Shown one piece after another: positions 1,038 through 28,808 of a stretch of DNA of 64,000 nt; positions within the stretch are counted from its first letter, which is position 1, and each line of letters begins with the position of its first letter. Under the pieces are notes generated by a model that ran no database searches, was not told the origin of the DNA, and was given only the letters and a program-made list of their open reading frames with translations. Both the position numbers and the translations under genes were made by a program. Where the stretch lies: positions 62,001-126,000 of the forward strand of contig FMBT01000331.1 of NCBI GenBank assembly GCA_900095095.1, read 5' to 3'. The DNA is from Fragilariopsis cylindrus CCMP1102 (taxonomy: Eukaryota > Bacillariophyta > Bacillariophyceae > Bacillariales > Bacillariaceae).

Positions 1038-3689
1038 ATGCGCACCATCTTGTTTCTATTGATTCTTTTGTGTCGCTATTGCCGAGGTGAAAGCGAAAAT
1101 TTAGAATTCGTGCAACATACTAACGGTGCGGCACAAAATACGGACGCCGCCCTATCGTCATTGGACACGTCGTATTATAAACGCCGCTGCCTGCGCGGGT
1201 ATGCCGCTTCAAACTTTGATCTTCTGGACACCGACAATTATGATAAATGGATGGATGACGACACGATTATGTATTTAGCGGAAACTGGTACCTACAAAGG
1301 CCCCAGCGGAATCGCCGAATATATAGGCGGGCCTGTTTATTTTGCATCAAGTTTTGTGGAGTTGGAATCACAGATGCTTCCGATTTCGTTTAATGAAACG
1401 ATTTGTGTGGCTCACTTCAGTATCAAAATTGATCTTACGACTGATCCTGTCAGGGTTGGTGAGCCCGTTGGCCTGGCTTCCACCTTTGGATTTACACTAT
1501 ACTGGACAGTTGCTGTTGCCGACGATGGTGTTGAATTGAATACTACAGATGTCCGTCCTAGCAACAGATTCAACAACTACGATGAAAATTACGACTTCAG
1601 AACTCACAGAATCAATGCATACTTCCCGAATGCATACTTGAGACGACTTTATGGAGTTGAACTTGAGACAGACAAGGTTCGTGACTTTGTTTGTGATGTC
1701 ATCATGAGCCCTGGGTGTAATGAAACACGTGATCTTAATCAACTCAGCTCGCATGAGGAGTGTGTAACAATGTACGAGACCCTTCTCAGTACCAATATGA
1801 CTGGATCTATGGATGACTTCACCAAAGGCTGTCGAATTCTTCACGCCGTATATGCTCTCGAAAACCAAAAACACTGTCCTCACTTGAGTTTTAAACCACA
1901 ACAAGACTATTTAGGTATAACCAAGTGCCAAATTTCAAGCGGACAGGTTCCATCAGATATCTTTTCCGAAGTCGAACTTGATTTCATTCAGCAGCAGAGC
2001 ATCACTTATGGATTCGACAGCCAGGAACAATATATAGAATCTGATCCTGTCCCAGTCATTTCTCATGGAGTTAAGGCCCTCCAATCCACACCATCGGAAG
2101 ACACGTCGAAGTCACCAAAAGACACGGGCAATGAAAGTGAGTTTATGAGGTTGCAATTCTTTGATCCTCTCATTCCATGTGGAGATGGCAGCCCTTCAGG
2201 TGTTTATGTTGAGAATAATCCTAAAGTGCAAAACAGTCAGAACCACATACTGGTATTTCTTGGCGGCGCTGCATGCACAAACCCACAAGACTGTGAAAAG
2301 GCGTATCGAATGGAACCCTTTAAGTTTTCAACTGACTATTACCCATCCACCTTGGAAGGATCTACCGTTCTATCAAGGGACCCGACAATAAATCCGACAA
2401 TGCACAATTACACCAAATGGATGGTACCCTATTGCAGTCAGGATTTCTTTTTGGGTGACATAAAGAAAGGAAAAGTAGGGAATTTCACTCACGCGGGAAG
2501 TCTTATATTTGACGCCGCGCTTAAGTATTGGCAGGGGCAAGTTCGTTCGAATTTTTTTCCTTTGGATTCAACGGGCGGCAGTGTTGTATTAGACAACGTA
2601 GTTGTCGTAGGGATTAGTGCGGGGGCGATCGGCGTTATGAATAAGATCGACACGATCCGTACAATCATCAACTCAGAAGAAGACAAAATCAAGACTCGGA
2701 ACCTCAAGATTATATTAGACTCTCCCTCCGTCATGAGCGATCTACCACATGCTGGAAAGAACTTCAAGACTGCTATGGTGGAGTACACCAACCTTAGTGA
2801 GAATCCCCTTTGCCATCCTCTAAACCCCTTCACTAGGACCTTTGAGAGAATGTCAGCACTACCATGCTGCTTATCTACGCACTGTATGCTTCGCTATGAC
2901 GAGAGATTGTCTAGTTTTTATGACATTAATTGGAAGACTGGCGGCAACAATGCAAATAATGAAGAAGAAATTTTGATTTTAGACTCAGCTTATGATCCGC
3001 TTGCCCTTATGTCATCTGTTGACGTATCTTCCGACCAAGATGACGACAGTAGTACCGACATAACTAGCGCGTTATTCGTTCAACTCGAGATCGGTGGAAT
3101 GAGAAAGAAAGGAGGTGTTGAAACAGCCGCCTTTGCCAAATCGATGGCCCAACAAAAAATGTCACAAAACATAACTTTAGAAGAATTCTATGACCAGCCT
3201 CGGGTGAAATGGATCTTCAGTTCATGCTACCAGCATACTTTTTTGGTACCAAGTTCGTCAGTACTCGAATTGAATTGTCTCTATGGAAACTATGAAGACG
3301 AGCAATTTGACTATGTTTGCCGAGATGGTGGATATTCGTTTGTGATTGAAACGGATAGCCACTATTTCGGTATTTGGAGAACTCCAGACACTTGGGACTT
3401 GGCTGTCTTCCGAGACGAATCAATGCATGACATTGTCAATAACTTTGTTCGTGGAAACTTTTCGGGTCAACTGCCATCACCAGTTGTCCTGGAAGGAGAC
3501 GTAGCTTTGCTTTCGTACGATACTCCCGACGTGATCGACTTCCGACTACAACCTTGCGTAGGTCCTAATTGTCGTGAAGACACAGCGCCCTCCTCGACAT
3601 TACCATCATGCCAGGCGATGATTGAAACTGCTAATTATTTTGTTCCGGTTCCTACTGGATTTGTTGTTGTATGGTTGTTCTACTTCTAA
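1038..3689 (+). CDS. Secreted SnoaL-like plus pectin acetylesterase/Notum-like protein
   Basis: An 883-residue ORF. Residues 1-17 form a signal peptide (MRTILFLLILLCRYCRG). Residues ~48-180 look like a SnoaL/NTF2-type domain. From ~375 the protein matches the pectin acetylesterase/Notum family of serine carboxylesterases, which remove acyl groups from glycans or lipidated proteins. The catalytic set is visible: Ser527 in GISAGAIG, Asp653 in DSAYDPLAL and His733 in SSCYQHTF, in the correct order and spacing. Many Asn-x-Ser/Thr sites and cysteines fit an extracellular location. The last residues run into a hydrophobic segment that is better encoded one frame over (MVVLLLIFLAA at 3671), and the next sequence encodes an ABCG transporter. 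The ORF end at 3689 is therefore probably not the true C-terminus. Confidence 0.85.
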   Translation: MRTILFLLILLCRYCRGESENLEFVQHTNGAAQNTDAALSSLDTSYYKRRCLRGYAASNFDLLDTDNYDKWMDDDTIMYLAETGTYKGPSGIAEYIGGPVYFASSFVELESQMLPISFNETICVAHFSIKIDLTTDPVRVGEPVGLASTFGFTLYWTVAVADDGVELNTTDVRPSNRFNNYDENYDFRTHRINAYFPNAYLRRLYGVELETDKVRDFVCDVIMSPGCNETRDLNQLSSHEECVTMYETLLSTNMTGSMDDFTKGCRILHAVYALENQKHCPHLSFKPQQDYLGITKCQISSGQVPSDIFSEVELDFIQQQSITYGFDSQEQYIESDPVPVISHGVKALQSTPSEDTSKSPKDTGNESEFMRLQFFDPLIPCGDGSPSGVYVENNPKVQNSQNHILVFLGGAACTNPQDCEKAYRMEPFKFSTDYYPSTLEGSTVLSRDPTINPTMHNYTKWMVPYCSQDFFLGDIKKGKVGNFTHAGSLIFDAALKYWQGQVRSNFFPLDSTGGSVVLDNVVVVGISAGAIGVMNKIDTIRTIINSEEDKIKTRNLKIILDSPSVMSDLPHAGKNFKTAMVEYTNLSENPLCHPLNPFTRTFERMSALPCCLSTHCMLRYDERLSSFYDINWKTGGNNANNEEEILILDSAYDPLALMSSVDVSSDQDDDSSTDITSALFVQLEIGGMRKKGGVETAAFAKSMAQQKMSQNITLEEFYDQPRVKWIFSSCYQHTFLVPSSSVLELNCLYGNYEDEQFDYVCRDGGYSFVIETDSHYFGIWRTPDTWDLAVFRDESMHDIVNNFVRGNFSGQLPSPVVLEGDVALLSYDTPDVIDFRLQPCVGPNCREDTAPSSTLPSCQAMIETANYFVPVPTGFVVVWLFYF

Positions 3690-5613
3690 TCTTCCTGGCT
3701 GCCACACCTTTCCTGAGATATCATTTACTAAAATGTTGATAGGCAAAATCGAAGCCGATATGAAGGATGCATTACGCACGACCGTAGAATTACGAACATC
3801 AAGATTATCATTCCATAGCCTAGACAGAGGAAGAAGAAGAAGAAAAAGTACTACGTAATACCAGAAAGTCACGACGAAGTCTCTCCGATAGCACACTTGC
3901 GATCGATGGCATAAGCGTAGTGATGTCAGATGGGAAAAATATTGTGACCGATGTGAGCATTAGCTTGAAGTATGGGACACTTAACGCTCTCTGTGGCAGA
4001 TCGGCAGTGGTAAGAGTACACTGCTGAGAGCGTTGTCATTACTGCATCATCCAGGAATCGAAGTGGAAATTCGAAATGGAAGTTCAATTTTGGAGCGAAC
4101 ACCAAAGGCTTTTCTCCGCCAACACGACGATTCTGTAGGATTTGGCAAGCTTACTCCCGTAGACTATCTTCGCTATACAGCACAGATCATAGGTTGCGAC
4201 AAAGAAAAACAGCAGATGTTCTCTTTTTGCTGACCAAATGTTTTCTCGTAAGAAGAAAAATCGCAGTACCGACCCTGAGAATGATTTCGACGCTTTCACC
4301 TCTACGAAGATTGAAAATTTGAGTGGTGGCCAGCGTAGATTTTTGAACATAGCCGCCACGCTTTTATCAGAACCAAAGTTGCTTCTATTGGATGAGCCTC
4401 TAAGTGGATTGGATTCTGCTTCTAGCCTTTTTGTTCTCGAGGGACTTGAATCGATTGCCCTAGTTTCTGATTGTGCTATCTTCATGACAGTTCATCAGCC
4501 TTCTGAGAGGATTTTGGAGCATTATGACACAGTATTCTTCATGGATGGAGGTCAATTGACTTTTCAAGAGTCGGTCAACCCGGAAATGTCCATGAACTCC
4601 ATACCGAACTTGAGAAGCGCATGATTTCTGATAGCACCTCCAAACCATTCCAACCGATAGATGAAGAGTCTCTCCAACAATCAATTGAACCTAACAACCC
4701 AATAGGAAAAGCTATGGCAGTGACAATTACAATGATAACATTAATTGTACGAAAGTGGAATTAAGATGTTTTCAAAGACCATAAAACAAATTGCTCCATT
4801 GGCTCATCGATTGCATCTCCAATTTGGTTGGGAGCCATTGAGCGGTTGTACACTGGTAATTTTTCTTATGTTTATTGCAGGTTTGCTTCGCTTTGAGAAA
4901 TTCTATCCGCAAAAGGTTGTCTCACTGTCTCTTACTATAATTGGTATTCCGAGTGTTGTTTTTCCGCACAAGGTGGTCGAACATGCTTTAATGTGGAAGG
5001 CTCATAAAGAAGAATTGGACGATAAAAAGATAACGCCCTTGGCGTTTCAAATCTCAACAGCTCTACTCACATTCCCTGTACCAATTTTCTCTCTTCTAGT
5101 TGGGCAAATATTGGTTTACCTGATCGAAGGGTGGTCATTTGATAGCTTTGCGTACCAATGGGTGGTTGCTACCGTTCATCTTATGTGTTCTTTTCAATTG
5201 GGACGAATGCTGATGGTGTGGTTTCGAGGCGATTTCAGTAAGGGAATTCGGTATTATGTAATGTTCCTTGTATATGCATTTATTTTCAATGGTGTCTGCA
5301 TGTCTACAAACAAGCCCCCAGAATTTTTGCGTTGGTTGTATTGGTTCTCGATCAATTTTTGGGGAATTTCCGGTTCGGTGATCCGCCAGTTTGACAGTGA
5401 CGTTTATTCAAATACTGAATATTGCAGTGATCTAATTGCCTGCTGGTCAGTGATAACAATACTATCATACGGAACCTTGGTTTTGCTCCACTTTCAAATA
5501 CTGTTCGAGCGCTCAACATTCTGACTTGCGTATTTGTAGCTTTTTGGCTTCTGGAGTTTGCCATCTTGCATCATAGACGACCGGACATAGATAGACTCAA
5601 GCACAGCTTGTAA
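3671..5613 (+). CDS. ABCG-type ABC transporter, frame-disrupted; likely 3' half of a fusion with the esterase
   Basis: In order the region encodes a membrane helix (3671-3720), a basic linker, and an ABCG nucleotide-binding domain. The domain shows a Walker A region around 4000-4025, the signature LSGGQRR at ~4320, Walker B LLLLDEPLSGLDS at ~4380 and the H-loop TVHQPSE at ~4490. It is followed by an ABC2-type membrane domain (4745-5524) and a short C-terminal tail ending at 5613. No single frame covers it: there are around eight one-base frame changes, nearly all reading as the loss of one base. In Walker A the text GATCGGCAGTGG needs one more G to give GRSGSGKST, which an intron cannot explain. 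The NBD-then-TMD order is that of ABCG half transporters. Either it is a decaying gene or the sequence carries errors; clean conservation between the breaks favours errors. Confidence 0.75.
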
Positions 5614-5960
5614 CGGCTAAGTGGGGCACGTTCGATTGAGGTGCAATCCGAACCCCCAATCTTAAACGATTTCAATAAAATAAATAATTACATATGTACA
5701 GTAGCACTTCGTACTACTTCTAGCATTCATCGATATTGCAGATATGCGTGTTCACGTGTGTTTGGGGCATATGCTGGAGCACTGATGTCGATTGATAACG
5801 TGCCGGACAACTACCATCGCTTGATTCAAAATTATTCCCAACCCCAATTCACCTGGTACATATTTTTCTTTTGCTGACTGGTACAATCGCAACATTTGCA
5901 AGTGATGCCAGCTAAGCTAGCATCGAACTCCCCAATGACAATGAAATTGAGCAAGCGACC
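5614..5960. other. Intergenic downstream of the transporter
   Basis: A 78-residue ORF (5641-5877) crosses this stretch but has no recognisable domain and no neighbour support. I see nothing else firm. Confidence 0.3.
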
Positions 5961-8384: not shown

Positions 8385-8457
8385 CAGGATCAAAATACAT
8401 AGGAATTGATCTAGATTGGAACTACAAAATAGAACAAGTAGTATTATTAGTAGAAGG

Positions 8458-8694
8458 TGTTGAAATCTTAACACGCACGACGGACAGACCGCAAATACCG
8501 TTACTATCGCGCACCGATTCAAACAGTCAAACAAGCCAGTCAAACCCCAAATCCAATTCAAATGATAAATGCCTATCATCACTACTAACACAAGCAACAC
8601 AGCGTCTCAAGGACAGCCTAAGATAGAGCCCATAAATCGTTTAGAACAACCTTAATAACTCAACTAATCTCTTATCTAAACTAGAATCTCAACA
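8458..8694 (+). repeat. Copia 5' LTR
   Basis: 237 bp, TG...CA ends, repeated at 14076-14312. It is preceded by GAAGG, the 5-bp target duplication. Confidence 0.93.
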
Positions 8695-8707
8695 GTTCTA
8701 AACGATA

Positions 8708-10078
8708 TTGTCGCAGGACACGAAACTAGACCTACTAACCCACGAAACAGTCAGCAGTAACCAACGACGTTTCGCAAGCATGACGAAAGTCTTAATCGAA
8801 TATGACTACTCAGGCATTGACCGAGTAGTTGGAATACCAACAACAGGACAGTTAATTACATTCCAGAAGCAGATGGCAAAAGTACAAACTAGTTACAAAT
8901 GCAACATCGCGGAAGCAAAAGACCATGGATGGTCATGGATAATGTGCACTCAAGCGCAGTGGATACTAAAACGAGGAATCATAGCACAAGTACCAGTGCC
9001 AACCGATCCAGGTCCATACATAGGAGACACCAACATCCTCAATGCAGCACACAAGCAAGCGCTCAAACTCTATCAAGAATACGAGGAACACAAGCGCAAC
9101 ACCAACAAAGCAATCCAAGCATGCTTTGATGAAGATTTATTTATCGAATTAGAAACAGATGGATTATTACTCGGAGTTTCACCACACGAGGTGTACCAAC
9201 ACATGTGGATGAATTTTATCCTAACAGTTGACAAAGATCGTGAAATCCTACATGCACGAGAACTACTCAAGGTAGATTACGACCCAGATCGAATAGTCCA
9301 ACACTACTACAAGGCAATCAACGAAGCAAGAGAACTACTAACTGGTCTCCGCGAAACTGTAACAGATGCAGAAGTGATGAGGAATGCATATGCCACCTTT
9401 GAAAAGAACATCGACTTAAAGGATGCATGTCGTGAATGGAACAGAGGGACATTAACAACATGGGAGGAAATGAGGAAACACTTCAGCAAGGAGATCCAGA
9501 TGAATAAAACAGATCCAGCCATTATGAAAAGAACAGAACTCGCAAATGCAGTACTAGCACAAAACAAAGAAGACGAAAATACGCAACGACAAGCAATGGA
9601 ATTAGGAGTACTACAAACACAAAAGATCCAGGAACTAGAGGCAAGGATCGAACAACAACAACTCGCAAACAGCGCAACCAACCAGGTCCCCGGACGGATC
9701 CCAGCTTCAATCAGCACAGGCAGCAGCAATGGCAGCGCCGGTGGTAGTAGTGCAACAAGCACTGTAACCAAAGAAGAGATGATGCAGATGTTCGCACAAT
9801 TCACTCAAAACAACAACCAAGGTGAAAGCAATGCAGGTACAGCAAAGAAGAAAAAGAACAGGTTTGACGGCGAGTATATCCGGAATGATCTAGGAAATGG
9901 AGAACGATCGAAACGCAGATATCCGGATTCAACCAACTACTGCCCATCGTGTGGATACGACATCAAACCAACACACACACCAGGCACCTGCACCAACCGA
10001 AAAGCCTGCCACAATGAAGCAGCTACCCTCACTAACAAAATGGGAGGAGTCACTACCAATTGCCATTTCGTAACCTGA
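8708..10078 (+). CDS. Copia gag-like region
   Basis: Roughly 456 residues directly after the 5' LTR. It is helix-rich and highly charged, with a long coiled-coil-like stretch and a Gly/Ser-rich linker. A C-terminal zinc-binding segment of the form CPSCGYD...H...C...C occupies the nucleocapsid position. Placement between the LTR and pol supports the gag call; no separate host function is implied. Confidence 0.8.
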   Translation: MSQDTKLDLLTHETVSSNQRRFASMTKVLIEYDYSGIDRVVGIPTTGQLITFQKQMAKVQTSYKCNIAEAKDHGWSWIMCTQAQWILKRGIIAQVPVPTDPGPYIGDTNILNAAHKQALKLYQEYEEHKRNTNKAIQACFDEDLFIELETDGLLLGVSPHEVYQHMWMNFILTVDKDREILHARELLKVDYDPDRIVQHYYKAINEARELLTGLRETVTDAEVMRNAYATFEKNIDLKDACREWNRGTLTTWEEMRKHFSKEIQMNKTDPAIMKRTELANAVLAQNKEDENTQRQAMELGVLQTQKIQELEARIEQQQLANSATNQVPGRIPASISTGSSNGSAGGSSATSTVTKEEMMQMFAQFTQNNNQGESNAGTAKKKKNRFDGEYIRNDLGNGERSKRRYPDSTNYCPSCGYDIKPTHTPGTCTNRKACHNEAATLTNKMGGVTTNCHFVT

Positions 10079-10090
10079 AGATGTGGGGAG

Positions 10091-13000
10091 GTGAATAGTA
10101 AGATAAGTCAAAATAATAAAATAAATAATACTGATTTAAACAATTACACATCATCTTCGAGTACCAATAAGCATATATCATATGCAGCAGCAGTTACAAG
10201 CAATAGAGATAGCACTACCCGTTTGTCGACTCTCACAAACAAATTCAAAGCACTACTAACTACCCGAACCACACCACAAGGCCATCCGGATTCAGCAGCA
10301 ACCAGCATGTTCTTATCAAACAAACACAAGCACCTAGGAGAAGCACTACAACACGAAGAAATCAATGTAGGAGTAGCCAACACCAACACGATGAACTCTG
10401 TAACAACTCGACAGCTACAACTAGCACCAGAACTGCCAATGGAAGCACAGAAAGCACATGGATTCAAAGAAATGGAACGATCACTAATATCGGTACCAGT
10501 ACTATGTGATGCCGACTGCACAGTAGTATTCAAGAAGAAAAATGTGCAAGTGATCAAAGCAAACAAAATAATCATTGAAGGACCAAGAGACGCTGAAACA
10601 AACCTATGGTTGATGCCACTAGAAAGTAATAACACAACGAAACCAATCAAGAGACCATTTGTGATCCAACTAAAGCACACTGCCAACAGTGCGTATCAAC
10701 AAAAATCAGCGTCACAGCTACAAGCATGGCACCATGCAACGTTAGGAGCTCCAGTCGTCACAACACTAATCAAAGCAATTGACAAGAATTGGTTAACATC
10801 ATTCCCAGGATTAACATCCAATGGCATCAGAAAACACCTACCAAAATCAATCCAAACAACAATGGGGCATCTACACAAAGTAAGAAAGAACCTACGCCCA
10901 ACAGACAAAGTGACAGCAGAGGAAATAATGGAAGATGAAGAAGATGATCCGGACTATCTACCACCAAGAGAAATCACGAATCGTGAGCACATTGTACAGA
11001 TAACAGCAGTAAACTTTGAAGACCTGAAAGGAATGACCTCAAGTGATCAAACAGGTGCTTTCCCTAACACATCATCGAGAGGAAACAGATACATCATGGT
11101 GATGGAGGATAGTGATTCAGGAGCAATACTAGCAGTGGCAATCAAATCACGAGCAAAAGAACACCTATTAGCAGGATTCATTGAGATGCATATACACTGA
11201 AGAAAGCAGGCATCAATCCAGTAATACACCGAATAGACAATGAATTTTCGAAGGAGCTCATCGAAGAGATAGAATCAAGAGGATTGAAATACCAAATAGC
11301 ACCAAGAGGCAACCATCGGACCATACCTGCAGAAAGAGCAATACAAACAGTCAAAAATCATTTCGTATCAACACTGTATGGGTGTGATCCAACATTCCCG
11401 AAAAGCCAATGGGATAGATTACTACAAGTGGCAATATTAACACTAAACATGCTACGGCCATCACGAATCAATCCAGCAAAGTCAGCCTACAATGAATTAT
11501 GGGGAAACTTCGACTTCAACAAAACACCACTAGCACCACCCGGATGCCTCATTGTAGCACATGAGAGACCACAGGATAGAAAAACATGGGCAGACCATGG
11601 AGTAAAAGGATACTTCATTGGACCAGCCAAACATCATTATCGGAATTATAGAGTATACATACCAGCAACAAGAGGAGAAAGAACAACAGATACAATCGAA
11701 TTCTTCCCTGAACATGTACAAATGCCAAAGACATCATCAGAAGATAGACTAGCAAGCGTAACAGAAGATTTAGTAGCAATACTCCAAAAACCACATCCAC
11801 CTACGCCATTTCTGGATCAAGGCACAACAACCAACGACGCCATTGACAAGTTACGAGAAATATTCACCCCTAGACAACAGAATGAATCTACAAGGGTGCC
11901 GGCATGGGCAGCTACAAGGGTGGTGGGAGATCCAGTGGAAAACCAACAACAATTCTTCAATAGGAACCAAGGTACGAACCAAGTGGGTGATCCAGGGGAA
12001 AACCAACACCAATTCTTCAACATGAACCAAGGTACGAACCGAGTAGCTACAAGGGTGGCATTACCAACAATTACCGAAGATGAGATAGGAACCAAGATTA
12101 TGAAGAACTACAACAACACCATCCAACGCGGAGAAGTAACAAGCTACAATGAAAACGAAAGAATGTACTTTATCGAATATGAAAGTGGGGACAAAGAACA
12201 AGTAAGCAGTAGAACACTCAACAGGTACAAATGCATTGATACAGATAAAGATCTAACACAACGAATCACCAGATTATCAACACGACTTCAACGAGCTAAC
12301 ATGGTACGACAGAATAAGAACAACCCATCAGGAGGAAAACTACCAGGACACTTTGCAATGACAGTATATGATGAAGCAACAGGAAAAATGATAGACTACA
12401 AACAACTAGTCAACCACTCCGACAAGAAAACACGAGAATCATGGCAAAAATCAGCAGCAAATGAATTTGGCAAACTTTTAAAAGGAGTAGGAAAGAATGA
12501 AGATGGCACCCAACGAGTCAAAGGATCAGATACATTCCACTTCATAAAAAGAAAACAAGTACCAATAGGAAAGAAAGTAACGTATGCACGCTTCTGTTGT
12601 GATGTACGCTTACAGAAAGATGATATCAATCGAACACGACTAACAGTAGGAGGTGACAGACTACCATATGATGGAAAAACAAGCACAGAAACAGCAGGAC
12701 TGGAGACAATCAAAATACACCTCAACAGCACCATATCAACCAAGAATGGCCAGTACGCAGCAGCTGACATCGGCAACTTCTACACCAATTCAAAACTTCA
12801 ATCATCAGAGTACATGAGAATTCACATAAGCTTAATCCCAACAGAAATTATAGAAGAATACAACGTAAGGCAATATGTGGAAACAGATGACTACGTCTAT
12901 GTAGAGATCACCGGAGCAATGTATGGACTAGCACAGAGTGGTCGAATTGCAAACCAAGACCTCCAAAAGCACTTAGCACAGTACGGATATTACCCAACCA

Positions 13001-14075
13001 AACGGACACCAGGATTATGGAAACACAAGACAAGACCAATCAGCTTCACACTAGTAGTTGATGATTTTGGAGTGAAATACACCAACAAAGAAGACGTCGA
13101 TCACTTATTCACAGCAATCAAAGAAAAATACCCACTAAAAATAGATTGGACAGGGTCCAAATATATAGGAATTGACCTAGAATGGAACTATGAAAAAAGA
13201 GAAGTAAAACTATCAATGAAAGGGTACGTAAAAAGAGCACTACAGCAATTTCAACACCCAACTCCATCAAAACATCACTATGGACCAACAAAGTATGTAG
13301 CACCTGAATATGGAAAGAAAGTACAATACACCACGGAAGATACAACACCGGAACTAACCTTACTACAAAAGAACCACATCCAGAAAGTTTGTGGCAAATT
13401 CCTATACGATGGAAGATCAGTTGACAGCACACAACTACACGCACTCAATGAACTAAGCATCAAGGCAACAACAGCAACAGAGGACACACAAGCAGCACTA
13501 ATACAATTCCTAAACTACTGTGCCAGCAACCCAGATGCAACCATCATCTACAGAGCAAGTGACATGATATTATCATGTGACAGTGATGCAGCCTACTGCG
13601 TAGCACCGAAATCACGCAGTCGAGCAGGCGGCTATCACTATCTAGGCAACAAACACGGAACCCAATTCAATGGTCCAATATATGTACTAGCAAAAATAAT
13701 CAAAGCAGTAATGGCATCAGCAGCAGAGGCAGAAGTAGGAGCATTGTACATGAATGCACAAGAACTAGCACCAATGAGAACAACACTCGAAGAACTCGGC
13801 CATCCACAACCACCAACACCACTCCAAACCGATAACAGTACAGCAGATGGAATAATGAATAAAACAATCAAACAGAAACAGAGTAAAGCAATGGACAAAA
13901 GATTCTACTGGGTACAGGACAGGGTGGAACAAGGAGAATACAGAGTATTCTGGGCTCCGGGCAAAGTTAACCTCGCCGACTACTATACCAAATACCACTC
14001 ACCAGCCACACACAGAAAACTAAGACCTATCTACACTTATATTGAAGGTAAGAGCCCAACTAGCTTGCAAGGGTG
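10091..14075 (+). CDS. Copia pol region (protease, integrase, RT, RNase H)
   Basis: The first third holds the likely protease and the start of integrase. The integrase continues with core and C-terminal blocks (RTIPAERAIQTVKN, YNELWG, VKGYFIGP). Reverse transcriptase follows with ITGAMYGLAQSG and the catalytic LVVDDFG, then RNase H with DSDAAYCV and AAEAEVGALYMNAQE, ending shortly before the 3' LTR. A proline/glutamine-rich linker with a short duplicated block (GDP-ENQ-QFFN) lies between integrase and RT. The coding part looks largely preserved. Confidence 0.85.
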
Positions 14076-14312
14076 TGTTGAAATCTTAACACGCACGACG
14101 GACAGACCGCAAATACCGTTACTATCGCGCACCGATTCAAACAGTCAAACAAGCCAGTCAAACCCCAAATCCAATTCAAATGATAAATGCCTATCATCAC
14201 TACTAACACAAGCAACACAGCGTCTCAAGGACAGCCTAAGATAGAGCCCATAAATCGTTTAGAACAACCTTAATAACTCAACTAATCTCTTATCTAAACT
14301 AGAATCTCAACA
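14076..14312 (+). repeat. Copia 3' LTR
   Basis: 237 bp, apparently identical to 8458-8694, followed by the GAAGG target duplication. Confidence 0.93.
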
Positions 14313-14863
14313 GAAGGGTATGTAAAAAAGCACTAAAAGAATATCAACACAAAGCACCAACAAAAACATTTGATGCACCTATAAAATACCACAAGCCGGA
14401 ACTTGGACAAAAAGTATGGTATGAAAGAGTGGATGAATCAACATCATTATCACCAACACAAATAAAGATAATACAAGAAGTATGTGGAAAATTCTTATTA
14501 TATACAAGTTGAGCAATAGATAATACTACATGCATGCATTGAATGAGCTATGTATAGCAGCAGCAACAAAACAAACACAAGAAGCACTAGAGTACTTCCT
14601 AAACTACTGTGCAACACATCCGGAAGCATAAATAGACAGTGATACAGCCTACCAAGTGGCAGCGGAATCAAGAATCAGAGCATCCGGATACCACTATTTA
14701 GTAAATTTAGACTGAGTAATATTTGTATTAGCAAGGACAATTAAATCAGTCATGCAACCAGCAGCAGAGGCAGAATGTGGTGGATTGTACATGAACGCAA
14801 ATGAAGCCTTGCCAATGAGAATAACATTAGACATTAATTTAATATCAAAGTATACCATACAGT

Positions 14864-23506: not shown

Positions 23507-26500
23507 ATGCATATTCCAACTTTTATGAGACACCGCCTTGATGAAGACGACAGAAAGCAACCAGGACATCGTCGTAATGAGGATGACGAGGACGATGAGG
23601 ACGACGAGGACGACGAAGATGATATAACGACGATGATGATGATATCGACGATGATGATGATAACGACGACGATGATGATAACGAAGATGATGATAACGAC
23701 GACGATGATGATAACGAAGATGATGATAACGACGACGATGATGATCCTCATCAACAACAGGGACATCGATCGCGTTGTTTTGGAGGAAGTGATTCTTTGT
23801 CGTTACTTCTATCGCTGTTATTAACAGTAGCAGTTTTTGGGTCAGGTTTCGCTTTTACCAACGTTCTTCGTTCTAGTGAAAATACTCGTCTCATTATCAT
23901 TGGTACCGACACCACCACCACTGTCGACAACAGCAGCAGCGATAATAACGGCGAGCATAATTCTTCCATTATCTCTACCACAGGAGAACTTGTTTTAAGC
24001 GTCAAGGATATCGACCGAGTGTTGTTACGAGAATATGCTACTACCACTATGGTCGGCAGAAGTGTCCATGAATATGAATACGACGTTGTCTATGCTGATG
24101 ACAATTCCAACAAAGACGAAATATTGGAACGAAAACTAAACCCGACATCAAAAGAAAAAGGGAATGACAAAGGAAGCAAAACAATTGCAAGTATCAATGG
24201 ATTATCAGCTTCACCTAAAAATTCATTACCGAAAAAGACTTTAATAAAAGATCTTAAAAGATTTACAGAAGAAATTTTAAGTATTGATGGTGTTATACAA
24301 TCGTCCAATCCTTTTAAAGAGTGTAGTGTGAATGCGATTATACCAAGAACAACAGATTGTAAAAATTTATATCCCTGTGGTGAGGAAATTCCCAAAGACG
24401 TAAAGGAATGTTATGAATATGAAATTAGTATTAGTGGTAGTAATGCAGTTTGCACAGTTGATGCAATTGAATTAATTGCAGGAGAAATATCATCTGACAG
24501 TTATACAACTGATTTTGGTTATCGTGTTATACTAGAACCATCCCCTGAAGTAGATACTGCAATTGTTGAAGTATTAGCTGCGCCACTTAAGGGTTCATCA
24601 AAAAAAAAGTTGAAAAACGATCTAACAAGAGCAGCAAAAGTCATTTTAGATATTAATGGTTTGATAAAGCCATCCAATGTCTACAAAGATTCTATTGTTA
24701 AGATTATTATTGAAGAAAAAATAGACTGCATTAATATATATACTGATGGGCAAATTCCTAAAAAGGTCAAAACATGTCATAAATGTAGAATGAGTATTAG
24801 TGGTAGTAATGCAGATGATGCAATTCGTCTTGTTACAAGAAAAATACCAACAATTGATCTTAGTTTTGGTTTAGTTCTAAAACCATCAGTTGTGCCATTT
24901 ACTGCAAGCGTTAATGGACTAGCTGCTCCCCCCTCAAGTGCATTATCAAAGAGCGATCTGAAAAATGCAATACAAGAGTAACAGAAAGAATTTTATGTCC
25001 ATTCAAAGACTGTATTGTAAAAGTCATTATACCAAAAACAGCAGATTGTAATGATATATATACTGATGGAAAAGATATTCCAGAGAGTGTACAAAAATGT
25101 TATGGCTATGAAATTATAATTAAAGATAACGGGGGTGGAACTTGTAATACAGCAGAAGCAGTTGAAGTAGTTACTGAGGAAATCTCAGATGGTGAATACA
25201 CAAATGACCTCAAATTTGACGTTATAATTGACCCGAACTGCAGAGACGATGATAATTTCCGTTACAAGAACAAAAAAAAGAGGGGTTGCGCAAATTGGGT
25301 GCAAAAAAGAAGTAAGCGTTGTGGAAAGGTTGATCCAAAATCTAAAAAAAAAGTCAGCTTCTTTTGTCAAGCAACATGCAAGCAGAAATGTAGGACATCC
25401 AGTCCAACAGAGTTAAGTGCTTCTCCTAGTTCCGTTCCTAGTCTCGATCGAAGCGACACACCTAGCTCTATCCCAAGTATTGTGGGAAGTACCAATCCTA
25501 GCTCAAAACCAAGCTTCAGGCCGAGTCCTTCATCTAGTTCTGTTCCTAGTCCAGATCCTAGCTTCGATCCGAGTGGCGCACCGAGTTCTGTCCCAAGTGC
25601 TGCCCCAAGTACTGCTCCTACTTCCATACCAAGCTTTGGGCCCAGTCTTCCACCAAGTTCTCTTCCGAGTGCTGTTCCAAGTATTATCCAAGTGCAGGCC
25701 CCAGTCTTTCGCCAAGCTCTATTCCTAGTCTCGAACCTAGCTTCTTCCGAGTGCTTCACCAAGTTCTGTCCCTAGTTTAGAACCCAGTTCCATTCCGAGT
25801 TCCATTCCGAGTGCTGGTCCAAGTGGGGAGCCAAGTAATTTTCCCAGCTCGGAGCCCAGCTGGGAGCCTAGCTCTCTTCCAATGTATTCCAAGCGGTGGT
25901 CCTAGTTCTGATCCAAGTAGCTTCCAAGTGGTGGTCCTAGTTCTGAACCTAGTGCTGTCCCTAGTTTTGTTCCCAGCTTTATTCCGAGTACGGAGCCCAC
26001 TTCGATTCCGAGTGCTGTTCCAAGTATTAGTCCAAGCGCAGGCCCAGTCTTTCGCCAAGCTCTATTCCTAGTCTCGAACCTAGCTTACTTCCGAGTGCTT
26101 CACCAAGTTCTGTCCCTAGTTTAGAACCCAGTTCCATTCCGAGTTCCATTCCGAGTGCTGGTCCAAGTGGGGAGCCAAGTAATTTTCCCAGCTCGGAGCC
26201 CAGCTCGGAGCCTAGCTCTCTTCCAAGCGTATTTCCAAGCGGTGGTCCTAGTTCTGATCCAAGCAGTCTTCCAAGTGGTGGTCCGAGTTCTGAGCCTAGT
26301 GCTGTCCCTAGTTTTGTTCCCAGCTTTATTCCGAGTACGGAGCCCACTTCGATTCCGAGTGCTGTTCCAAGTATTATTCCAAGTGCAGGCCCCAGTCTTT
26401 CGCCAAGCTCTATTCCTAGTCTCGAACCTAGCTTACTTCCGAGTGCTTCACCAAGTTCTGTCCCTAGTTTAGAACCCAGTTCCATTCCGAGTTCCATTCC

Positions 26501-28808
26501 GAGTGCTGGTCCAAGTGGGGAGCCAAGTAATTTTCCCAGCTCGGAGCCCAGCTCGGAGCCTAGCTCTCTTCCAAGCGTATTTCCAAGCGGTGGTCCTAGT
26601 TCTGATCCAAGCAGTCTTCCAAGTGGTGGTCCAAGTTCTGAGCCTAGTGCTGTCCCTAGTTTTGTTCCCAGCTTTATTCCGAGTACGGAGCCCACTTCCA
26701 TTCCGAGTGCTGTTCCAAGTATTAGTCCAAGCGCAGGCCCCAGTCTTTCACTAAGTAGCCTTCCGAATTTAGAACCAAGTTCATTGCCGAGTGCTGCACC
26801 CAGTCCCATCCCAAGTCTTGATCCGAGTGCTGCCCCTAGCCTTGCTCCCAGTGAGGTTTCTAGTGCGGACTCAAGCGCAGCACCAAGTGCTGATCCAAGT
26901 GCTTCTCCTAGCTCTGCTCCTAGCTTTGATCCAAGTGATGCACCGAGTTCTGTTCCAAGTGTTGTCCCAAGTACTGTTCCTAGTTCTCATCCAAGCGCTA
27001 TTCCTAGTTCAGAGCCAAGCAAGTCTCCAAGTGCTGCGCCGAGTTCCATTCCGAGTCTTGGTCCAAGTTCTGTCCCTACCCTTGCTCCCAGTGAAGGTCC
27101 TAGCTTCGATCCGAGTGGCGCACCAAGTTATGTCCCAAGTGCTGCCCCAAGTACTGCTCCTAGTTCCAGACCCAGCTCCGGGCCCAGTCTTTCACCAAGT
27201 TCTCATCCGAGTTCTGTTCCAAGTCTTGACCCAAGTGCAGGTCCCAGTCTTTCACCAAGCTCTGTTCCTAGTCTCGAACCTAGCTTACTTCCGAGTGCTT
27301 CACCAAGTTCTGTCCCTAGTTTGGAACCTAGCTCTATTCCAAGTTTTATTCCGAGTGCTGATCCAAGTGGGGAGCCAAGTAATTCTCCCAGCTCAAAGCC
27401 CAGCTCTCTTCCAAGTTTAGTTCCAAGTTTAGTTCCAAGCGGTGGTCCTAGTTCTGATCCAAGCAGTCTTCCAAGTGGTGGTCCTAGTTCTGAACCGAGT
27501 GCTGTTCCCAGTTCTGTTCCAAGCTCTATTCCGAGTACGGACCCCAGTTCGATTCCGAGTTCTATTCCAAGTCTTGACCCAAGCGCAGGTCCCAGTGTTT
27601 CACCAAGTAGCCTGCCAAGTTTAGAACCAAGTTCATTGCCGAGTGCTGCACCCAGTCCCATCCCAAGTCTTGATCCGAGCGCTGCTCCTAGTGCGGATCC
27701 AAGCGCAGCACCGATTGTTGATCCAAGTGCTTCTCCTACCTCTATTCCTAGTCTGGATCCGAGCGGCGCACCAAGTGTTTTTCCAAGTGTTGTCCCAAGT
27801 ATTAATCCTAGTCCGAGACCGAGTTTTATGCCCAGTCTTGCACTTAGTTCTGTTCCTAGTCTTGAACCCAGCATTGATCTGAATGCAGCCACGTGTGGGA
27901 TTGGGTGCCTAACCTGCTCAACTGCACTTGCCGTCATACCACCGGTACAAACCATAACCTCAGGAACCTCAGGAGAAGCGTGCGCAAGAGGGACCACAAC
28001 AGCGACCGCCACTGGGACGAAAACAGCATGTGCAACTGCGACTGAAAATATAGCAGGAACCGCTACAGCGACTACAACAGGGACTGTAGATACTTTTTCA
28101 ACCGCAACTGGAATTCTGGCAGCAACTACTACAGCCACTTCGACTCTTGAAGCGACAGCTTGTTCAACAGCGAAAACCTCAGCTTCGACAGCAAGTGGGG
28201 TAATATCAGCAACAGCAATTTCAGACTCAACCGTAGACTTAGCCGGATCAGCAGCAGCAACAGCAACCACAACAAGAACTGGTGGGACTACGGCTGCTTC
28301 AGCGACCACGGCTGCTTCAGCGACCGCGTCAGGATCCGTAGCTGCTGCCGCAACAGCTACAGCAACTATTGCGTCTTCCCCATTCGCCGTTGGTCCTAGT
28401 GAAGCAACTACAACATCGTTGGCAAATGAATCATCGTCATCAACTGCAGTAGCAACATCAACAGTAGCAACAGCACCATTTGCAGTAGCAAGAGCAACAG
28501 CAACAGCATCAGCATCAGCATCAGCATTAAATACCGTAGCAGCAACCGCAACCGCAACAGCAAGTGCAACTGGAACAAGTAAATCGTGTGCAATAGCGAC
28601 CGCCACAGTGACTGCATTTGCTACTAGTAGTAAAGCTGCTTGTGCAACTGCAACCGTAACAGTGGTGGGGTCAACTGTACTGTCCGCCCCGCCCATAAAG
28701 ACAAAAGAACAATGTACAATAGTAGGAGTTGGTGGAACAGTAGTAGTAATGGTACATCATGGCGATTGCGAAGGCTATGTTACATCACCACACCGTCATT
28801 TAAATTAA
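23507..28808 (+). CDS. Large Pro-Ser repeat cell-surface protein
   Basis: In order: an acidic Asp-rich N-terminus (23570-23750), a signal-anchor or signal helix (LSLLLSLLLTVAVFGSG at ~23798), and four ~110-residue repeats built on GLSA-P---L-K--LK followed by a Cys-containing strand (24180-25210). Next comes a Cys-rich module of the kind seen in diatom surface proteins (RGCANWV...RCGK...FFCQATC at ~25285-25390). A very long PSSxPS array follows (25410-27870), then an Ala/Thr/Ser-rich tail. The make-up suggests a glycosylated wall or adhesion protein. Frame breaks occur: one near 23600, one near 24970 (GCAATACAAGA lacks one T against its paralogous repeats), and several in the first 348-bp repeat unit. 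The open stretches are 23797-24981, 25299-25775 and 26784-28808. Confidence 0.75.
25676..26760 (+). repeat. 348-bp higher-order repeat within the Pro-Ser array
   Basis: Three units, marked by GCTGTTCCAAGTATTA at ~25670, ~26012 and ~26359 and again at ~26707. The distance between matching points is 347-348 bp for the later units and ~343 for the first. Each unit encodes 116 residues of PSxxPS. Later units keep the frame; the first carries several one-base losses. Confidence 0.85.

Follow-up and report, generated by a model that had tools for sequence, protein, structure and literature searches.

A pectinacetylesterase/Notum-type gene directly abutting a frame-broken ABCG-type transporter half in Fragilariopsis cylindrus

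The esterase half

The window analysed here is a stretch of 64,000 nucleotides from a contig of F. cylindrus CCMP1102, and all positions refer to its forward (+) strand, on which every feature described below lies. Silicon transporters occur in the genome, as expected of a diatom. An open reading frame of 883 codons runs from an ATG at 1038 to a TAA stop at 3687-3689 (1038-3689), and the last residues of its 883 amino acid translation form a short hydrophobic tail, GFVVVWLFYF. A preliminary description of this DNA placed a signal peptide at the start of the frame; a hydrophobic N-terminus is indeed seen there (MRTILFLLILLCRYCRG, 1038-1088), and its identity as a signal peptide is a reading of the sequence. 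An N-terminal domain follows (residues 36-158, 1143-1511), with 27-28% identity to free-standing ORFs, and then a Cys-containing domain (residues 256-341, 1803-2060) with 41-42% identity to three other loci over 60-86 residues. The first of these had been called SnoaL-like. However, no Pfam family matches residues 1-361 of the protein at E<=1, and SnoaL_2 is found in the paralogue L003 only, at 16.8 bits, below the cut-off of 27. Thus the SnoaL label is weak, and is kept tentatively.

The pectinacetylesterase (PAE)/Notum domain (residues 381-547, 2178-2678) was recovered as described, with the Pfam profile PF03283 scoring 69.3 and 70.6 bits against a cut-off of 26.6 (E 4.4e-19) in a match that spans positions 24-176 of 355 of the profile only. 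Notum structures are among the PDB matches (best 4uzj, E 2.2e-14). Catalytic motifs of plant PAEs are GCSxG, NxayDxwQ and HCQ (PMC5465549). The three residues named in the preliminary description were all located. Ser527 (2616-2618) lies in GISAG, a GxSxG nucleophile motif within both the PF03283 match and the best Notum match. The candidate Asp653 (2994-2996) lies in the SAYD of DSAYDPLA, resembling the plant NxayDxwQ motif, and the candidate His733 (3234-3236) in SCYQHTF, resembling HCQ; both are outside the Pfam match. Structure models have pLDDT 30 for the PAE part and 38 for the N-terminal part, too low to interpret.

The transporter half and its reading frames

An ABCG-type half (3671-5613) adjoins the esterase on the same strand without an intergenic gap, in alternating frames (given here as position modulo 3). 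It opens with a membrane helix in frame 2 (3671-3733), one shift after the esterase frame, and a linker in frame 1 (3739-3840). The ATPase starts in frame 2 (3842-3994, ending ...SISLKYGTLNALC; frame reading and stitched profile match), and continues in frame 1 with Walker A, IGSGKST (4000-4200), and in frame 2 with LSGGQ, LLLLDEP and HQPS (4223-4564), these two segments being recognised by frames, alignment and profile. The ATPase tail and a further linker are in frame 1 (4570-4746), an ABC2-type membrane domain in frame 2 (4751-5500; profile and protein comparison), and a last membrane helix with its stop in frame 1 (5524-5613); the linkers, the ATPase tail and this helix come from frame reading. 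The first helix straddles the first frame change, and has a hydropathy of 2.71 when joined to the end of the esterase, the TAA of which falls within it.

Walker A, signature and Walker B are present in the ATPase, which, when stitched with an X at each change, matches positions 2-136 of 137 of the ABC_tran profile at 61.8 bits; the unstitched fragments score 15.6 and 35.8 bits. Downstream, ABC2_membrane (PF01061) reaches 32.8 bits against a cut-off of 26.9. The top PDB matches of the stitched ATPase are CDR1 and ABCG25/ABCG16 chains, in a set of 497 distinct PDB sequences at E<=0.001 (chain names are those of the best 60). As ABCB and other ABC chains are also matched, the ABCG assignment rests on the top matches together with domain order. 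A frameshift-aware alignment to seven ABCG ORFs of the same genome scores 169, against 23-27 for three shuffles; it starts at Walker A and ends at 4564, short of the upstream side and the membrane domain, and crosses one change without a gap there. The helix at 3671, the ABC ATPase and the ABC2 domain of the preliminary description are therefore present, on one strand and with no gap after the esterase.

The frame changes eight times, at about 3668, 3735, 3841, 3997, 4205-4222, 4567, 4748 and 5501-5523, so that the continuous frame expected of a functional ABCG gene is absent. No stop is found in the 625 piecewise-assigned ABC codons, a count that excludes some 65 nt around the changes and is taken over pieces picked as open. 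A stop-free path through 3671-5610 needs at least six frame switches. First-order Markov controls need 22.1 on average and 13 at minimum (0/1000 at six or fewer), and three noncoding stretches of the window need 18, 22 and 20; thus the openness of this region exceeds chance. That each change amounts to a net single base was discarded as evidence, because, modulo three, this is true of every change of frame.

The preliminary description suggested that the esterase ectodomain and the ABCG part could form one polypeptide. The two domains are real, but the fused protein is unreadable here, where only the esterase half yields a readable protein: its frame stops at 3687-3689, and no single open frame holds both domains. 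If the changes were introns, or were bypassed by programmed frameshifting, one product could still be made, which we consider very improbable. GT-AG pairs of at least 30 nt that would rejoin the frames were enumerated and exist at all eight changes, but the cheapest choices remove 15, 16, 16, 11, 14, 15, 9 and 17 residues of assigned sequence, and were rejected for this loss. Around Walker A 11 or more residues would go, yet the alignment of the stitched ATPase runs through the changes. We know of no diatom parallel for eight programmed frameshifts in one gene. With eight frame changes, and splicing that costs 9-17 residues at each, one present-day polypeptide is unsupported by the sequence.

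An ancestral single gene, on the other hand, is supported by the direct abutment, the shared strand and the membrane helix at the expected tether site. It is unlikely that these are instead two adjacent genes, with a complete gene for a secreted esterase up to 3689 and an ABCG gene or pseudogene downstream of it. Two genes would account for the clean stop of the esterase ORF, and for there being no other PAE-ABC pairing among the 5 PAE and 34 ABC2_membrane matches of this genome. However, no space is left for an intergenic stretch: from an ATG at 3671, the helix frame overlaps the last esterase codons, and it meets a stop at 3737. None of AATAAA, ATTAAA or TGTAA occurs between 3689 and 5257. 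Diatom poly-A signals are not strict, and an AATAAA after the ABC part (5674-5679; motif scan) is likewise weak evidence.

Decay or consensus error

We infer that the locus is the remnant of one PAE-ABCG gene, in which the esterase half remained open and the transporter half lost its frame by real decay, not by errors in the consensus; we hold this reading to be evenly poised between right and wrong. It is supported by the abutting same-strand domains, the helix over the first change, the stitched ATPase and the clustering of the changes, all eight of which fall within the 1940 nt that begin at 3671, while the 2649 nt of the esterase half have none (P 0.001 if uniform). An open esterase half beside a broken half is expected if the esterase is still selected.

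The main rival is an intact gene for one PAE-ABCG protein, the eight changes being local errors of the consensus, such as low coverage or the merging of two haplotypes would cause; this is possible, though we lean against it. Each one can be assigned to a single base, and several are next to short runs, as in consensus errors: an AAAA tract near 3732, a GAA repeat near 3835 and a TTTTT tract near 4224. The ATPase motifs are kept, and the absence of stops in the 625 codons also counts against decay: at 8 substitutions for each of 8 indels, 2.5 nonsense changes are expected (P of none 0.08; 0.39 with 3 substitutions per indel, 0.002 with 20). Haplotype merging is made possible by the locus being found once in the assembly, since two other loci are on two contigs each. 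No second copy of the gene was found in the assembly by protein (other nucleotide-binding domain matches are at <=41% identity) or by DNA, where matches were confined to short repeats that lie upstream of the gene. Contig C771, which carries a near-identical retrotransposon, shows no sign of being the other allele: over its first 4500 bases, blastn gives nothing at E<=1e-8 against positions 1-30000 of the window. Contig C559 matches contig C770 at 56.07-56.54 kb and ends there.

Against consensus error stand the unbroken 2649 nt adjoining the changes and the rest of the window, where the other genes keep long frames (8446 nt of coding stretches are open, though picked for openness). About 3 kb downstream, a retrotransposon and its closest copy are separated by 17 mismatches and one gap in 4614 bases (19 mismatches and 6 gaps to the next copy). 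Thus the contig as a whole is not rich in one-base indels, although so clean an element may have been polished by reads from its other copies. Codon use is uninformative, synonymous choice being too weak here to separate coding from decayed sequence. A codon-based frame model (14 training sequences minus L003, left out for the terminal stop within its coordinates; not decisive) ends clear coding at 3670 and calls most of the ABC half noncoding, but 4220-4596 coding, which neither decay nor consensus error predicts cleanly.

A possible fusion and its relation to known systems

Under decay, the ancestor would have been one gene for a secreted PAE/Notum-type ectodomain, a membrane helix and an ABCG half-transporter, the ectodomain perhaps acting outside the cell on a glycan or lipid moved by the ABC part. 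About eight small indels would then have put the transporter half of this copy out of frame. The current product would be the 883-residue esterase, predicted to be secreted and to hydrolyse acyl esters (acetyl esters, perhaps) at the cell wall or surface. Some diatoms, perhaps including this one on accurate reads, might carry one protein in which an extracellular PAE/Notum esterase is tethered to an ABCG transporter and deacylates the substrate where it is moved; we rate this slightly below even. If so, the genome shows either the fusion masked by consensus errors or a copy that has lost the transporter and retained the enzyme.

Among the literature matches listed for PAE, Notum or pectinacetylesterase with ABC/ABCG transporters and for diatoms, no paper describes this enzyme-ABCG layout; the main text of PMC5465549 has no occurrence of 'abc' or 'transporter', and the passages of PMC3681718 contain no PAE-ABC combination. 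No relatives of the gene were confirmed in the viral and prokaryotic contig collections. If the fusion is intact anywhere, an ester-cleaving enzyme would be physically coupled to an ABCG-class transporter. As it stands, the locus looks like a fused gene with one half still readable and the other losing its frame, and is a warning that fusions should not be called from domain order alone.

Within the same genome, the loci L041/L040 also join a PAE-family domain to a membrane domain, but theirs is Der1/rhomboid-like and in a single frame, open on two contigs, whereas that of the window gene is ABC. The L041 PAE domain scores 28 bits in the genome profile search and is absent from the whole-protein Pfam listing. 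Notum and plant pectin acetylesterases (PF03283, CE13) share with the window gene a significant profile and sequence match over the first half of the domain, the Ser in GxSxG, and candidate Asp and His in similar motifs. The plant motifs are partly kept (GISAG, DSAYDPLA, HTF), and the window gene differs in its extra N-terminal region and former ABC tail.

With the ABCG half-transporters ABCG25 and ABCG16 and the full-length CDR1, whose chains we take to be of plant and fungal origin, the transporter half shares the order of ATPase and membrane domain, the P-loop, LSGGQ, LLLLDEP and ABC2_membrane; it differs in its eight frame breaks and in the large enzyme-bearing ectodomain in front. Plant ABCG24/28-type proteins have an extracellular N-terminal region before the ATPase, and if the frames are stitched the window gene has the same order of ectodomain, helix, ATPase and membrane domain. 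However, the ectodomain here is an esterase, and the gene is not in a single frame.

Architecture of the esterase half

The upstream half of the gene reads as one open frame of 883 codons (1038-3689), which begins with a hydrophobic, signal-like stretch. In a profile search, residues 381-547 match the pectin-acetylesterase/Notum domain (PAE, PF03283), and Notum makes up eight of the ten distinct sequences among the PDB matches listed (E 2.2e-14 to 1.2e-13). Ser527 lies within the PF03283 match, in GISAG. Asp653 (SAYD) and His733 (SCYQH) are similar to the plant PAE motifs NxayDxwQ and HCQ, respectively (PMC5465549). As these two residues fall beyond the matched part, Ser527/Asp653/His733 are a likely catalytic triad.

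In a protein search of the assembly, residues 36-158 recur on contigs C500 and C678 (27-28% identity), and residues 256-341 on C643, C500 and C678 (41-42% identity); the C500 and C678 copies stand free, as ORFs 369 and 363 codons long, respectively. Loci L003, L004 and L002 of the same genome encode secreted-like proteins with the esterase's N-terminal and Cys-containing domains, separated in L003 and L004 by KTKAP-type repeats. The SnoaL-like label of the preliminary description has as its one basis a sub-threshold SnoaL_2 match in a free-standing relative, L003.

The transporter half and its junction with the esterase

After the esterase (frame 0), the frame order from 3671 is 2, 1, 2, 1, 2, 1, 2, 1, with eight assigned pieces giving 625 codons and no stops. 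By a greedy count, stop-free passage of 3671-5610 takes at least 6 frame switches, compared with at least 13 (mean 22) in 1000 Markov controls. The stitched protein, with X at seven frame changes, matches ABC_tran over profile positions 2-136 of 137 (61.8 bits) and ABC2_membrane (32.2 bits). Because the ATPase precedes the membrane domain, the predicted transporter is of ABCG type. Among the best 60 of 497 PDB matches, CDR1, ABCG25 and ABCG16 come first, ahead of many ABCB chains. A profile search of the contigs finds 34 ABC2_membrane matches, this gene's (31.5 bits) being among the four weakest. A search of this assembly with its membrane domain gives no paralogue at E<=0.001.

The frame-2 helix starts at 3671, upstream of the esterase stop at 3689, leaving no intergenic space, and sits at the tether site expected between ectodomain and ATPase. 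A scan for three poly-A-like motifs gives no hit from 3689 up to a TGTAA at 5257; a second TGTAA lies at 5609 and an AATAAA at 5674. Together, the missing gap, the helix and the motif-free interval favour, though indirectly, one ancestral gene. The first observation is partly confirmed: the signal-like start, PAE/Notum domain and abutting ABC domains hold, but the single reading frame does not, and with alternating transporter frames the proposed single polypeptide finds no support in this sequence.

Cause of the frame changes

GT-AG splicing would remove at least 9-17 assigned residues per change, and the stitched ATPase aligns across the changes; introns are therefore rejected. The eight changes are confined to the 1940-nt ABC half and spare the 2649-nt esterase half (probability 0.001 under a uniform distribution). 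This points to decay, with the ABC half having lost its reading frame. The few gaps in a retrotransposon copy about 3 kb downstream also count for decay: over 4614 bases its nearest copy differs from it by 17 mismatches and a single gap, and the next-nearest by 19 mismatches and 6 gaps. Consensus error is somewhat less favoured, although every change can be put down to a single base, short runs adjoin several of them, and there are no nonsense changes, the probability of which under decay is 0.39 to 0.002 (3 to 20 substitutions per indel). Decay is preferred by a modest margin, and under either cause a fusion, ancestral or present, is the natural source.

The LTR retrotransposon (8457-14313), Copia-like as read from its domain order, has identical 239-base ends and starts about 2.8 kb beyond the ABC remnant; near-identical copies lie on C771 and C637, with many others in the genome. 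Elsewhere in the window, a long frame (26031-28808) carries PSxxPS-type repeats, then a Thr/Ala-rich part.

Related architectures and proposed function

The window covers bases 62001-126000 of contig C770, in an assembly that comprises 818 contigs (67.9 Mb). A profile search gives 27 matches to the silicon-transporter family PF03842, strong ones among them (best 757 bits), which points to a diatom genome. Two loci compared in pairs each lie on two contigs at 92.5-95.7% identity by piece; thus both haplotypes are probably partly represented. Profile searching finds five PF03283 matches, this gene plus two contig pairs. On C809 and C395 (L040:712-4260, L041:2918-6415), frames of 1182 and 1165 codons, respectively, stay open and encode a PAE-like part (GCSAGG), after which the C395 copy, the one tested, gives a Der1-like match (27.8 bits against 26.6) and a weak rhomboid match. 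Judged from these predicted domains, this genome therefore has at least one further, readable case of a PAE-type enzyme linked to a membrane domain. On C590/C420 the PAE match is spread over several frames, with internal stops on C420; introns or decay are candidate causes.

Read as it is, the sequence would yield an esterase that starts with a signal-like stretch and ends in a short hydrophobic one; this protein might be released or loosely anchored, or it might bear a GPI-type signal. In an intact form the enzyme would face the outside of the membrane and the ATPase the inside and, as the preliminary description proposed, the enzyme may deacylate a surface glycan or lipid, with the transporter moving that glycan or lipid. 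No relatives were confirmed in viral contigs or prokaryotic genomes by scans that reach close relatives only. We know of no description of a PAE-Der1/rhomboid-like pairing. The literature listings searched show no description of a PAE-ABCG layout. The gene is moderately interesting: it may combine these domains in a new way, and it reads as a fused gene with one half broken.
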